This document shows, in pieces, positions 36,158 to 41,951 of a stretch of 53,197 nt of DNA (positions within the stretch are counted from its first letter, which is position 1; each line of letters begins with the position of its first letter). The position numbers and the translations under genes are program-made. The notes under the pieces were generated by a model. That model ran no database searches. It saw nothing but the letters and a program-made list of their open reading frames with translations, and was not told the DNA's origin. The stretch is from Halanaerobium saccharolyticum (GTDB lineage Bacteria; Bacillota; Halanaerobiia; Halanaerobiales; Halanaerobiaceae), in assembly GCF_003053565.1 (NCBI RefSeq), contig NZ_QAXS01000023.1, forward strand, positions 1 to 53,197, read 5' to 3'.

Positions 36158-36216
36158 TCATTAGAAATATAAAGTTTTTAAACTATATAATAACTAAAAC
36201 CAGAGGAGTGAGCAAA

Positions 36217-36657
36217 ATGAAATATCCGGAAGCCACAGTAGGTGCTGTTATTTTGAATCCAGAAAACAGAGTTCTGATCTGCAAATCAAATAAATGGCAG
36301 CAAAAATATGTAATCCCCGGCGGTCATATTGAAGCAGGAGAGAAAATGGAAGAGGCCTTAGTGAGAGAGGTTAAAGAAGAAACAGGGCTTGAAATTTATG
36401 ATATTGAACTGCTTGGAATCACAGAAAGTATTTATTCTGAGTCTTTTCAAAATCAGAAACATTTCCTTTTTGTTGATTTTATCTGTCGCAGTGATTCTAC
36501 AAAAGTTGAGTTAAATCATGAGGCCCAGTCCTATCAATGGATTGAGCTCAGCGAAATTGAAGCTTATGACCTGGAAGAATTCACTGCCAGCTTATTAAAA
36601 GAGCTGCGGCGGGGAAAGGATTCTAACTACAGACAGGATATATTATACGGTTTATAA
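36217..36657 (+). CDS. Nudix hydrolase
   Basis: A small pyrophosphohydrolase (146 aa). The Nudix box is complete: GGHIEAGEKMEEALVREVKE followed by ETGLEI, carrying the metal-binding REVKEE. The substrate could be an oxidised nucleotide or nucleotide-sugar. The start at 36217 is preferred because GAGGAG lies eight bases upstream; GTG 36208 overlaps that site. It lies about 50 bp before the kinase-glycosylase fusion gene on the same strand. If cotranscribed, the pair would link nucleotide-pool cleaning to DNA repair. Confidence 0.88.
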   Translation: MKYPEATVGAVILNPENRVLICKSNKWQQKYVIPGGHIEAGEKMEEALVREVKEETGLEIYDIELLGITESIYSESFQNQKHFLFVDFICRSDSTKVELNHEAQSYQWIELSEIEAYDLEEFTASLLKELRRGKDSNYRQDILYGL

Positions 36658-36706
36658 TCTAAAACAGTAAAATAATAATAGACTAGAAAAGAACGGAATG
36701 ATTTTA

Positions 36707-37978
36707 ATGAATAAAATTGAAATAAAAAATAAGATAAAAAAATCAATTGAGATGCCTGAGCGGAAGGCTGAGACAAGAGAACTTTTTCTATTTTTTGGCC
36801 TTCCAGGCAGCGGTAAATCAACACTGGCGGAAGAGCTTTATCAGCGAAACAAAAAAGAAAGTATCTATCTGGCAGCTGATCAGATAGCTTTAGAATATAA
36901 TCTGGACCAATCAGATAACTATCACTGGACCTTTGAAATTTTTAATGAGCTAATTGAATACTATCTTAAATCCGGTTATTCAGTCATCGCTGATGCCAAT
37001 CTTGATAAATATGAGATTCGAAAAGAATATTATCAGCTGGCTGAAAACTGTGGCGCAGAGTTAAAGCTCTTTTATCTAAAGACAAACCTGGCTGAAATTA
37101 AAAAAAGACAGCAGCAGCGAAATCAGCTTGCAGAGGCTGAACTGCGCTCGGCAGGCTTGTACAGCCACAATCAGGAAGAAATAAAAAACTATCTAGAGGA
37201 GCTTGAGCTACCTCGTGAATCAGAAAAAGTTTATCTAATTGACGGGAATTTTGATTTTGCAGAGCAGCTTGACTGCTGGCAAGAGGTAGAAGAGGAAGCT
37301 TTATTTGATTATTTGGACGCTGTCCGCAGCAGTCTGGCTCAAAATTCTAACCCGGAAAAAGCAGAGGGAATGGAAGGCTACATGCGGGATCAGTTTCCTT
37401 TCTACGGTCTGCAGGCAGCTGAGAGGCGAAAAACTTTAAGAAAATATATGAGGCAGGATCAGCGGCCTAAATTAAGGCAGCTAAAAACTGCAGTCAAAAA
37501 GCTCTGGCAGCTGCCGGAAAGAGAATTTCAGTATTTTGCTCAGGAGCTGATTCTAAAGTATAAGAAAGATTATAGCAAAGATATGATAGATCTCTTTGAA
37601 TACATGCTGACCAATAAATCCTGGTGGGATACTGTGGATCAGATAGCAAAAAAATCTGTGGGAGAATATTTTCAGCTTTTTCCTGAAGAAAGAGATCCCA
37701 AGCTTATGAAATGGCTGGAAAGCGGCAATATCTGGCTGCAGCGGACCGCTTTACTGTTTCAGCTGGGCTATAAGGAAGAAACAGATGCTCAGCTTTTATT
37801 TGACCTGATTGAAAAGTTAAGAGATATCGATGAATTTTTTATTCAAAAGGCAATTGGCTGGGCTTTACGAGAATATTCTAAACTGGAACCGCTGGCAGTG
37901 GTTAAATTTTCAAATACTCATCAGCTCTCAGCGCTAGCAGAAAGAGAAGCCTTAAAAGTTGTTAAAAGAAATAAATAG
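36707..37978 (+). CDS. Fusion of a P-loop kinase and an AlkD-like DNA glycosylase
   Basis: A 423-aa two-domain protein. Residues ~25-185 are a P-loop kinase of the AAA_33/polynucleotide kinase or zeta-toxin type: Walker A FGLPGSGKST, an acceptor-side Asp in LAADQIALE, SVIADANLDKYEIR, and the arginine-rich lid KKRQQQRNQLAEAELR. Residues ~200-415 are DNA alkylation repeats, as in AlkD: ELWQ-like KLWQLPEREFQYFAQELILK, KSWWDTVDQIA (the Trp and Asp of the active site), NIWLQRTALL, and AIGWALREYSK with the third catalytic Trp. AlkD excises 3-methyl and 7-methyl purines. The kinase substrate is unknown (5'-OH nucleic acid or a small molecule). ATG 36707 is preferred over 36698 for ribosome-site spacing. 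Confidence 0.82.
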   Translation: MNKIEIKNKIKKSIEMPERKAETRELFLFFGLPGSGKSTLAEELYQRNKKESIYLAADQIALEYNLDQSDNYHWTFEIFNELIEYYLKSGYSVIADANLDKYEIRKEYYQLAENCGAELKLFYLKTNLAEIKKRQQQRNQLAEAELRSAGLYSHNQEEIKNYLEELELPRESEKVYLIDGNFDFAEQLDCWQEVEEEALFDYLDAVRSSLAQNSNPEKAEGMEGYMRDQFPFYGLQAAERRKTLRKYMRQDQRPKLRQLKTAVKKLWQLPEREFQYFAQELILKYKKDYSKDMIDLFEYMLTNKSWWDTVDQIAKKSVGEYFQLFPEERDPKLMKWLESGNIWLQRTALLFQLGYKEETDAQLLFDLIEKLRDIDEFFIQKAIGWALREYSKLEPLAVVKFSNTHQLSALAEREALKVVKRNK

Positions 37979-38122: not shown

Positions 38123-38191
38123 TAATAATTTTTATTAGTGATAAATATTGGATTCATAAAATCACTAAGTAAATCTAAAGGAGGATTTATT

Positions 38192-39115
38192 TTGTTAAAT
38201 AAAAAGAATTACATAGCTGTTCTGGTAATGGCTTTGGTGTTAATTTTAAGTATTTCGGTGATGGCAGAAACAAGGGTTGTTGAGCATGCAATGGGAAAAA
38301 CTGAAATTGAGGGCACTCCCCAAAGAGTTGTAACCCTTTATCAGGGTGCCAGTGATGCTGCTCATGCCCTTGACATACCCCTGGTTGGTATTGTAGAATC
38401 CTGGGTAGAAAAACCTGTCTATAAATATCTGCGGGATGACCTGAGTGATGTTAAACAGGTTGGACTGGAAACTCAGCCCAATCTTGAAGAAATCAGTAAA
38501 TTAAATCCTGATTTAATTATTGCTTCTAAGATGAGGCACGAGGATATTTACAACCTGCTTTCCCAGATTGCTCCAACAGTAATGGAAGAAAATGTGTTCC
38601 GCTATCGGGAAACTGTTAAATTAATGGGTAAAGCTGCAGGTAGAGAAGAAAAAGCAGCAGAAGTTTTAAATAACTGGGATCAGCGAGCTGCAGATTTCAG
38701 AGAAAAAATCGAAGCTAAAATGGGTGAGAAGTGGCCGATTGAGGTTGCTGTTTTAAACTTTAGAGCAGACCATGCCCGTATTTATTACAGTGGTTATGCT
38801 GGAAGAATTCTAAATGAACTTGGTTTTGAGAGACCTGAAGACCATAAAAAAGATACCTGGGGAGTTAAATTAACTTCTAAAGAGAGTATCCCGGAGATGA
38901 ATGCAGAAGCCTTCTTCATCTTTATGTCAGATGATCAGGCAGTAGAAAACACCTATCAGGAATGGACTGAACACCCACTCTGGCAGAATCTGGATGCTGT
39001 TCAAAATGAGCAGGTATTTAGAGTTGATCAGGTTGCCTGGAATATGGCCGGCGGAATTGAATCAGCTCATATTATGTTAGATCAATTATATGAACACTTT
39101 GAACTGGAAGAATAA
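38192..39115 (+). CDS. Iron-siderophore ABC transporter substrate-binding protein
   Basis: Periplasmic binding protein of the FecB/FhuD family (about 307 aa). Starting from TTG 38192, with AAAGGAGG at good spacing, it has a signal peptide (MLNKKNYIAVLVMALVLILS, cleaved after VMA) and no lipobox, so it is a free periplasmic protein. Mature features are RVVTLYQGASDAAHALDI, LNPDLIIASKM, FRADHARIYYSG and the C-terminal W-rich HPLWQNLDAVQNEQVF, all family hallmarks. An upstream in-frame GTG at 38138 would bury the signal peptide and lacks a ribosome site. It is first in a four-gene operon with two permeases and an ATPase. Confidence 0.88.
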   Translation: MLNKKNYIAVLVMALVLILSISVMAETRVVEHAMGKTEIEGTPQRVVTLYQGASDAAHALDIPLVGIVESWVEKPVYKYLRDDLSDVKQVGLETQPNLEEISKLNPDLIIASKMRHEDIYNLLSQIAPTVMEENVFRYRETVKLMGKAAGREEKAAEVLNNWDQRAADFREKIEAKMGEKWPIEVAVLNFRADHARIYYSGYAGRILNELGFERPEDHKKDTWGVKLTSKESIPEMNAEAFFIFMSDDQAVENTYQEWTEHPLWQNLDAVQNEQVFRVDQVAWNMAGGIESAHIMLDQLYEHFELEE

Positions 39116-39120
39116 ATTTA

Positions 39121-40137
39121 ATGACTTACATTTTGCGTAATCAAAAGGCAAAAATGAATATGCTGCTGTTTTTAACTTTTTTGTTAATCACAGCAGCAGT
39201 TTTTAGTCTGGCTGTTGGTCAGCACTTTGTTTCCTTAACCAGTGTTTACAGGGCAATATTTAGTTTTGACCAGCAGTCAACAAGACATCTAATAATCCGC
39301 TCAACCAGATTGAGCAGAACTGTGATTGCTCTAGCAGCAGGCGGGAGTCTTGCTGTTGCCGGGGCTTTAATGCAGGCGCTGACCGGTAATCCACTTGCTG
39401 CTCCCGGAATTTTTGGGCTCAACTCAGGTGCAGTTTTCCTGCTGGTAATTGCAGCTACTTTTTTTGGAGTAACTTCGATGGAGCTCAGTATCTGGCTTGC
39501 TTTTTTTGGCTCAATGCTGGCCGGGTTGCTGGTTTATTTTATTGCTTCTCTGGGTAGAAGTGGACTTTCCTCTCTAAAAATGATTCTGGCTGGAGCTGCA
39601 GTGACTGCTCTTTTCCATTCCTTTACTCAGGGTCTTTTGGTAATTAACCAGGAGAGTTTAGAAAGTGTTCTTTTCTGGCTTTCTGGTTCAACTGCCGGTA
39701 GAGATTTGGGAATGATTATGCCGCTGCTTCCATTTATTTTAGGAGCGATAATTCTGGCTTTAATTTTGGCCAAAGATATTAATATTTTACTAATTGGAGA
39801 AGAGATGGCAGCAGGCCTGGGTCAAAAAACTATAATCATTAAACTTTTACTAGGTCTGAGCATTGTTATTCTGGCTGGCAGCTCAGTGGCTGCAGCAGGC
39901 GCAATATCTTTTATTGGTTTAGTAGTTCCTCATATCAGCCGCTTTTTTGTCGGGAATAACTACCACTGGCTGATAATTTATTCTTTTATTATTGGGGCAG
40001 TCCTGCTTTTAATTGCAGATATTGCAGCCAGGATTATCATTATGCCTCAGGAAGTACCGATTGGAGTTATGACAGCTTTTATGGGAGCACCATTTTTTGT
40101 TTACATTGTCAGGCGGGGGTTTAAAGTTAATGCTTAA
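39121..40137 (+). CDS. FecCD-family iron-siderophore permease, subunit 1
   Basis: Inner-membrane permease (338 aa, about ten helices) of the FecCD/BtuC family. Hallmarks are RLSRTVIALAAGGSLAVAGA, then LMQALTGNPLAAPGIFGLNSGA, and the coupling-helix region GAISFIGLVVPHISRFF. It begins five bases after the binding-protein stop and overlaps the start of the second permease, so the pair forms a heterodimeric channel. Substrate specificity (ferric siderophore rather than B12 or heme) is inferred from the FhuD-like binding protein. Confidence 0.9.
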   Translation: MTYILRNQKAKMNMLLFLTFLLITAAVFSLAVGQHFVSLTSVYRAIFSFDQQSTRHLIIRSTRLSRTVIALAAGGSLAVAGALMQALTGNPLAAPGIFGLNSGAVFLLVIAATFFGVTSMELSIWLAFFGSMLAGLLVYFIASLGRSGLSSLKMILAGAAVTALFHSFTQGLLVINQESLESVLFWLSGSTAGRDLGMIMPLLPFILGAIILALILAKDINILLIGEEMAAGLGQKTIIIKLLLGLSIVILAGSSVAAAGAISFIGLVVPHISRFFVGNNYHWLIIYSFIIGAVLLLIADIAARIIIMPQEVPIGVMTAFMGAPFFVYIVRRGFKVNA

Positions 40138-41137
40138 AAATTTGAAAATTTCGCGGGAGCTTATCTTAATTTTTGGACTCATTCTGCTGGCAGGATTAAT
40201 TTTTATTCTTTCTTTATCCTTCGGCAGCAGCTATATCTCACCAGTGACTGTGATCAGTCACTTTTTGGGACTGGAAGCTGGGTCTTATAATTTTACAATT
40301 AATATTTTACGCTTACCCCGTACACTTATGGCTTTTTTAGTTGGGGCAGCTCTCTCAGTTTCAGGACTTATTCTGCAGGCAAATATTAAAAATCCCCTGG
40401 CTTCTCCGGATATAATTGGAATCACAGGTGGGGCTTCTGCTGGAGCAATCACCTACTTAAGTTTTTTTAGTGCTGATTATGGGATTGGCGGTCTGCCTTT
40501 TGCTGCCATCCTGGGAGCAGCGGTGGTTTCCGCTTTGATCTATTTTCTGGCCTGGCAGAAGGGTGTCAGTTCAATCAGGCTGGTTTTGATTGGAATTGGG
40601 ATTGCAGCAGCTGTCGATGCTCTGGTAACAATGATTATTGTCTTCAGTCCAATCAGTACCACAGTTCAGTCCTATGTCTGGTTGACCGGGAGTATTTATG
40701 GTACAAACTGGGAGGATCTTTTTCAATTTCTGCCCTGGGTTATAATTTTTATTCCACTGGCTTTTGCTTTTTACAAAAGTTTAAATCTCCTGGCCTTAGG
40801 TGATAAGGTAGCTGCAGCTTTGGGTTTAAATATCCAGCTCAACCGCTTTCTCTTAATGACAATCAGTGTAGCTCTGGCCGGATCTGCTGTAGCCTATGCC
40901 GGAGGAGTTGCTTTTATTGGACTGATTGCACCTCATATTGCCCGAAAAATGGGAGGAAAATCTTATTCAATCTTAATTATCTATTCAGTTTTAAGTGGTG
41001 GAATGATTTTTATGGCAGCAGATTTGCTTGCCAGAACGGCCTTTTTACCACTTGACTTACCGGCAGGAGTCTTTGTTTCCGGAATCGGAGCTCCATTTTT
41101 TATTTATTTACTTTACAGAAATCGCAACCAATTTTAA
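40130..41137 (+). CDS. FecCD-family iron-siderophore permease, subunit 2
   Basis: Second FecCD permease (335 aa). Conserved segments are LRLPRTLMAFLVGAALSVSG, LQANIKNPLASPDIIGITGG and VAFIGLIAPHIARKM. The start ATG 40130 overlaps the stop codon of subunit 1, with GGCGGGGG upstream, giving translational coupling; an earlier in-frame ATG lies inside the preceding gene. The end IGAPFFIYLLYRNR is the usual C-terminus. Confidence 0.9.
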   Translation: MLKNLKISRELILIFGLILLAGLIFILSLSFGSSYISPVTVISHFLGLEAGSYNFTINILRLPRTLMAFLVGAALSVSGLILQANIKNPLASPDIIGITGGASAGAITYLSFFSADYGIGGLPFAAILGAAVVSALIYFLAWQKGVSSIRLVLIGIGIAAAVDALVTMIIVFSPISTTVQSYVWLTGSIYGTNWEDLFQFLPWVIIFIPLAFAFYKSLNLLALGDKVAAALGLNIQLNRFLLMTISVALAGSAVAYAGGVAFIGLIAPHIARKMGGKSYSILIIYSVLSGGMIFMAADLLARTAFLPLDLPAGVFVSGIGAPFFIYLLYRNRNQF

Positions 41138-41150
41138 AGGAGGTAGAACT

Positions 41151-41951
41151 TTGAGTATTTTAGAAACTAAAAATTTATCACTGGCCTATGACAAAGATAA
41201 AATAATTGATAACCTTGACTTAAAGATACCAGAAGGCGAAATTACTATTTTTATTGGTGGTAATGGTTCTGGCAAATCAACCCTGCTTAATTCTATGGCC
41301 CGGCTTTTAAAACCTGTGGAGGGGTCAGTAGAACTGAAGGGAGAAGATATTAATCAGCTTTCAACCAAAGAAGTGGCAAAAAAGCTTGCCTTTTTACCTC
41401 AAAGCTCTACTATTCCAGAGGGGATTACCGTCCGCAAACTGGTTGAACAGGGAAGATATCCCTATCAAAAATGGTATCAGGCCTCAAGCAGTGAGGATCA
41501 AAAGATAGTTGAAAAGGTTTTAAAAGACACAGGTCTTTTAGAACTTGCTGACCGAGATTTAAGTTCACTCTCTGGTGGACAGCGGCAGCGGGCCTGGCTG
41601 GCAATGGTCCTGGCTCAGGATACAGAAATAATTTTACTCGATGAACCAACTACTTACCTTGATCTCTCCCATCAGGTTGATCTGCTTGACTTACTCTATG
41701 AATTAAACAAGAAAGATCAGCGGACAATTATTATGGTCCTGCATGATTTAAACTTAGCCTGCCGCTATGCTGATCATATAGTGGCTGTTAAAGATAAAGG
41801 AGTTTTTGCCCAGGGTAAACCGGAAGAAGTTATTGATGAAGAAGTGATTAAAGAAGTTTTTGATTTAAACTGTCAGATTGTTTCTGATCCTGTATTTGGA
41901 ACCCCTCTCTGTATTCCAACAGGCAAAAATAAATTAAGTCAGGTTGTTTAA
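41151..41951 (+). CDS. Iron-siderophore ABC transporter ATPase
   Basis: ATP-binding subunit of the FecE/FhuC type (about 266 aa), powering the permease pair. Walker A is GGNGSGKST, the Q-loop FLPQSS, the signature LSGGQRQRAWLAM, Walker B IILLDEPTTYLDL, and the H-loop His is in VLHDLNLACRYAD. It begins at TTG 41151, seven bases after AAAGGAGG; the longer open frame into the preceding gene is not used. It is last in the operon; a weak terminator hairpin follows. Confidence 0.92.
   Translation: MSILETKNLSLAYDKDKIIDNLDLKIPEGEITIFIGGNGSGKSTLLNSMARLLKPVEGSVELKGEDINQLSTKEVAKKLAFLPQSSTIPEGITVRKLVEQGRYPYQKWYQASSSEDQKIVEKVLKDTGLLELADRDLSSLSGGQRQRAWLAMVLAQDTEIILLDEPTTYLDLSHQVDLLDLLYELNKKDQRTIIMVLHDLNLACRYADHIVAVKDKGVFAQGKPEEVIDEEVIKEVFDLNCQIVSDPVFGTPLCIPTGKNKLSQVV

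Follow-up and report, generated by a model that had tools for sequence, protein, structure and literature searches.

A predicted P-loop kinase joined in frame to an AlkD-type DNA glycosylase in one branch of Halanaerobium

The window, by which we mean the whole 53,197-nucleotide stretch of Halanaerobium saccharolyticum DNA analyzed here, contains one uninterrupted plus-strand reading frame in which an N-terminal P-loop kinase domain is followed by a complete AlkD-type DNA glycosylase domain (Table 1). This agrees with the original prediction, made from the nucleotide sequence, of a single frame joining a kinase to a full AlkD; both Pfam domains were recovered, and the active-site residues of each were checked and found to be present. 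The frame has two candidate start codons, ATG 36698 and ATG 36707, and in the kinase part of the gene the other two frames contain 14 and 28 stop codons. ATG 36707, the start used in the original prediction, is the better one, since it lines up with the start codon of unfused orthologues and the GAACGGA leader motif common to both gene types ends 9 bases upstream of it; residue numbers throughout are counted from ATG 36698. A model of the full-length fusion (pLDDT 82, pTM 0.56) consists of two domains and a low-confidence hinge at approximately residues 186-197. Upstream of the fusion lies a Nudix hydrolase gene (36208-36657), and downstream lies what reads, from its open reading frames, as an iron-siderophore-type transport operon; no gene that would name a pathway was seen near the fusion at this locus.

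Table 1. Coordinates of the kinase-AlkD fusion gene, its domains and predicted active-site residues in the window
Feature	Position	Strand	Basis or remark
Kinase-AlkD fusion gene	36707..37978	+	423 aa from ATG 36707; 426 aa from ATG 36698
Leader motif GAACGGAATGAT... and spacer, probable ribosome-binding region	36691..36706	+	Common to fused and unfused AlkD genes
P-loop kinase domain, residues 28-194	36779..37279	+	AAA_33 match, kinase-only model, PSTK N-terminal domain Z 17-18
Walker A GLPGSGKST, residues G34-T42	36797..36823	+	Sequence, alignment
D61, invariant	36878..36880	+	Alignment with 31 viral relatives
D99, invariant Asp ending strand 95-99	36992..36994	+	Alignment and kinase-only model
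R141, invariant lid arginine	37118..37120	+	Alignment with 31 viral relatives
Low-confidence hinge between domains, residues 186-201	37253..37300	+	pLDDT <50 at residues 186-197
AlkD HEAT-like-repeat glycosylase domain, residues 202-424	37301..37969	+	PF08713, B. cereus AlkD fold match
W310 and D314, equivalent to AlkD Trp109 and Asp113	37625..37639	+	Ungapped alignment
W388, equivalent to AlkD Trp187	37859..37861	+	Ungapped alignment

Residues 210-420 match the DNA_alkylation family (PF08713) in a Pfam search with an E-value of 3.1e-65, covering profile positions 2-211 of 213, and residues 205-425 align without gaps to the solved B. cereus AlkD (E about 1e-55, 42% identity). When modelled, the AlkD half superposes on B. 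cereus AlkD with a Z score of 27 and an rmsd of about 2 Å over 225 residues. The catalytic residues of the B. cereus enzyme are Trp109, Asp113 and Trp187 (PMC8626424), and the retention of this Trp-Asp-Trp set, claimed in the original prediction, is borne out by the ungapped alignment, in which W310, D314 and W388 occupy the three positions; all three are invariant across 17 AlkD sequences of the phylum. The C-terminal half thus shares with B. cereus AlkD its full length, its fold and its catalytic set, and the two proteins differ in that B. cereus AlkD stands alone whereas the Halanaerobium protein has a kinase of about 200 residues in front. Besides AlkD, the window genome encodes an AAG-type alkylpurine glycosylase (PF02245), giving it at least two activities of this kind; no Tag-type glycosylase homologue was found in it or in any searched genome of the genus. 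Across the genus, several near-complete Halanaerobium genomes (G002, G006-G010) gave no AlkD match.

The N-terminal half matches the Pfam family AAA_33 over residues 29-144 (E 4.1e-19, 69.7 bits against a cut-off of 27) and possesses the core features of a P-loop kinase, namely a Walker A motif, an aspartate at the general-base position (D61) and a lid arginine (R141). Alignment with 31 viral relatives identifies G34, S38, G39, K40, D61, D99, R108 and R141 as invariant, and the position of D61 is one that we take to be that of the catalytic general-base aspartate of polynucleotide kinases and zeta toxins. A model of the kinase alone (pLDDT 85.6, pTM 0.83) has as its top fold match the N-terminal domain of archaeal PSTK (Z 17.1-18.0, rmsd 2.0, ~155 residues), followed by a fungal kinase (16.6), Kti12 (16.3), the Clostridium Pnkp kinase (16.2) and a putative gluconate kinase (15.5), with PFKFB, zeta toxins and T4 Pnkp (Z 14.7) among the further matches. 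A sequence profile search likewise ranks PSTK first (E 2.5e-10), and there is a match to phrog_505 (E 1.9e-13). The relationship of this FGLPGSGKST-containing kinase to polynucleotide kinases and zeta toxins, part of the original prediction, is supported.

These resemblances to PSTK, Kti12 and polynucleotide kinases are at the level of the clan. The PSTK alignment covers the kinase part only, extending to chain residue 163, and TIGR03574 scores 41.5 bits against a cut-off of 290.5. PSTK has the same layout as the fusion, with an N-terminal P-loop domain and a C-terminal nucleic-acid-binding domain, but its C-terminal tRNA(Sec)-binding domain is missing from the fusion, where the AlkD domain occupies its place. 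Polynucleotide kinases (the Clostridium Pnkp kinase domain, T4 Pnkp and phrog_505) share the P-loop, the aspartate after strand 2 and the lid arginine, but the solved members are only about 16-18% identical and the fusion has no phosphatase or ligase domain. The Pfam Zeta_toxin family is also matched, at 25.4 bits against a cut-off of 22.3, while the AAA_33 match is far stronger. Among 398 sampled genomes of the phylum, the nearest relatives of the kinase are stand-alone kinases of ~160-190 amino acids with 28-35% identity, no close relative was found elsewhere in the class (59 genomes), and numerous phage kinases are related only distantly.

The fusion is present in three assemblies that represent two diverged lineages of the salt-loving genus Halanaerobium. 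One assembly (G003, record QBLP01000023.1) encodes a protein 100% identical to that of the window genome (G000), and a second member of the genus (G005) encodes the whole fusion at 72% identity, with 135/200 identical residues in the kinase (68%) and 172/226 in AlkD, and with the active-site residues of both halves all kept. The original prediction had named homologues with two separate genes and a stop missed between the domains as what would refute it, and neither was found: all three assemblies have an intact fusion, and at this locus the unfused relatives carry AlkD but lack a kinase gene. Nothing beyond the draft state of the assemblies speaks for a sequencing or assembly error, or for a missed stop between two genes, and the recurrence of the same architecture in both an identical and a diverged copy, together with relatives that have AlkD alone and no kinase nearby, makes such an artifact extremely improbable. 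Besides the window's own, no kinase-AlkD frame was found in the sample of 398 genomes of the phylum, the fusion was not found in phage, plasmid or viral collections, and no phage or plasmid record covered 80% of the full protein; restriction to one Halanaerobium branch holds only for the collections searched. A phage origin was rejected, as no viral contig encodes the fusion and the phage kinases are distant relatives.

Comparison of the two diverged copies (G000 and G005) indicates that both halves are under purifying selection, with pN/pS values of 0.22 (kinase) and 0.20 (AlkD) and synonymous differences near saturation (0.86 and 0.65). A neighbouring permease gene is under tighter constraint (pN 0.037, pS 0.61), so the fusion evolves faster than this neighbour, yet each half is clearly constrained. 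These values bear on whether the kinase half might be a non-functional passenger of an insertion. Confinement of the fusion to one small clade would fit such a passenger, as would the dispensability of the locus implied by the near-complete genomes that lack AlkD, but a kinase that retains 68% identity across the diverged pair at a pN/pS of 0.22, keeps every catalytic residue and has acquired no stop codon is very unlikely to be one.

The original prediction had also drawn attention to the Nudix gene directly upstream, and this link did not survive comparison of loci. In G005, the fusion is preceded by a UPF0047/YjbQ gene and not by a Nudix gene, and where other Halanaerobium genomes match the Nudix family best, they do so at different loci; a functional unit of the fusion with the Nudix gene was therefore rejected on synteny. 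The Nudix gene fills the spot held by UPF0047/YjbQ in G001, G004 and G005, a local gene replacement. Its product matches the PADLOC candidate profile PDC-S07 (E 2.8e-18) with no supporting context. A reading of the fusion itself as part of a defence system was rejected, its own PADLOC matches being weak (best E 1.5e-5, 22.7 bits), as was a toxin-antitoxin reading of the zeta match, given that no epsilon/PezA antitoxin gene adjoins the fusion and the upstream gene is Nudix in G000 or UPF0047 in G005. On the downstream side, the siderophore-type binding protein and permease genes (38138-41951 in the window) are missing at the G005 locus (L003, L074), where the fusion gene then adjoins genes that lie several kb further along in the window.

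In two other species (G001 and G004), AlkD is a separate gene whose product shares about 76% identity with the fused AlkD; it is syntenic, the permease gene and UPF0047 again lying upstream, and more distant members of the class likewise have AlkD alone. In the AlkD tree, the fused pair is placed apart from the unfused pair with support of 86/83, the fused branches measuring 0.23 and 0.12 against 0.07 and 0.04 for the sister unfused branches. Fused (G000, G005) and unfused (G001, G004) genes are alignable over the leader AGAACGGAATGAT... and the first codons, and each of four pairs tested, across or within groups, scored above all 2000 shuffles, these stretches being short and AT-rich. The shared leader and first codons indicate that an AlkD gene was already in place when the kinase was inserted within its 5' end. 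The simplest history would be that G000 and G005 inherited the fusion from an ancestor that gained it once, with the kinase segment placed just after AlkD's first codons; less simply, the fusion may have been gained earlier and then lost in G001 and G004. Read-through of two once-adjacent genes is not supported, given the lack of any nearby kinase gene in unfused relatives and the retention of the AlkD leader and first codons in the fused genes.

The AlkD half would represent the locus's ancestral alkylpurine DNA glycosylase, predicted to bind alkylated DNA and to remove cationic N3- or N7-alkylpurines by AlkD's non-base-flipping mechanism. Given the intact catalytic set, the modelled fold and the signature of selection, we consider it likely that this half still excises cationic alkylpurines. 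An AlkD half stripped of glycosylase activity, serving the kinase merely as a nucleic-acid-binding arm, has a precedent in the DPP III-AlkD fusion that is limited to Porphyromonas and does not rescue alkylation repair (PMC5708649), and it would fit the longer branches of the fused AlkD sequences. That fusion resembles the present one in being limited to a genus and in having its AlkD-like domain at the C-terminus, and establishes that AlkD fusions as such are already known, but its partner is a peptidase, whereas the Halanaerobium fusion keeps the catalytic triad. With no change at the three catalytic residues or at any column invariant among the 17 AlkD sequences, and an AlkD pN/pS that stays near 0.20, loss of glycosylase activity here seems improbable.

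For the kinase half, we propose that ATP would be bound through the Walker A motif and its phosphate transferred to a hydroxyl activated by D61, and we consider it likely that this half is active as an ATP-dependent phosphotransferase in which D61 serves as general base. In both PSTK and Kti12, a P-loop domain at the N-terminus precedes a C-terminal domain that binds nucleic acid (PMC11995267). Because the fusion has a comparable order of domains and polynucleotide kinases are also close, a hydroxyl on nucleic acid is our tentative first guess for the kinase target, and the AlkD solenoid may present nucleic acid to the kinase by analogy with the C-terminal domains of PSTK and Kti12. The kinase might instead act on a small molecule, whether a nucleoside, a sugar, a drug-like compound or another metabolite, the fusion then reflecting shared stress regulation or chance. 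Among the relatives of AAA_33 are gluconate, APS and adenylate kinases as well as a gentamicin-resistance ATP-binding family, plasmid-borne solo relatives are annotated only as AAA family ATPase or ATP-binding protein, and most relatives have a shorter lid stretch than the one here (residues 142-160), all of which would suit such a substrate. However, the solved proteins that come closest in both sequence and fold are the tRNA kinase PSTK, Kti12 and polynucleotide kinases, and the partner domain is one that binds nucleic acid; we regard a small-molecule substrate as plausible but less favored.

Our preferred reading, to which we assign a probability of roughly 55%, is of a two-domain enzyme of one Halanaerobium sub-lineage that combines a working AlkD glycosylase with an in-frame inserted kinase resembling those of PSTK, Kti12 and polynucleotide kinases. 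A stronger version would couple the two activities, with the AlkD solenoid finding alkylated DNA or RNA and the PSTK-like kinase phosphorylating a hydroxyl exposed there, which could belong to a base or sugar or to the end of a nicked strand. In base excision repair, AP endonuclease or lyase action after the glycosylase leaves no 5'-OH, so a link to end processing is not required by the known pathway. The nearest solved relative of the kinase is PSTK rather than the T4 or Clostridium polynucleotide kinase, and the low-confidence hinge that joins the domains does not argue for tight coupling. We regard lesion-coupled phosphorylation as a speculative and improbable elaboration; if true, it would constitute a repair or marking step previously not known.

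No kinase-AlkD enzyme was found in literature searches, in keeping with the original prediction, in which no described enzyme with this domain order was known, and the combination of these two known families appears to be undescribed. The fusion is an example, open to experiment, of how a DNA glycosylase may acquire a kinase step. Should the kinase use nucleic acid as its substrate, this would point to end processing or marking linked to the repair of alkylation damage; should the substrate be a metabolite, the fusion would help to show what one of the AAA_33 kinases, many of which have no known function, phosphorylates.

Two further observations concern AlkD genes elsewhere. A different AlkD fusion is encoded in another genome of the phylum (G091, L054:1335-3041, minus strand), where a 568-aa frame places a complete AlkD domain after an N-terminal region of ~360 aa that matches no Pfam family. 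Four short, unannotated records named Listeria phage (OR846989.1, OR848351.1, OR848317.1 and OR846796.1) contain AlkD genes with 44-47% identity to the one in the window, and a matching chromosome-sized Listeria record suggests that these four phage entries contain bacterial DNA.
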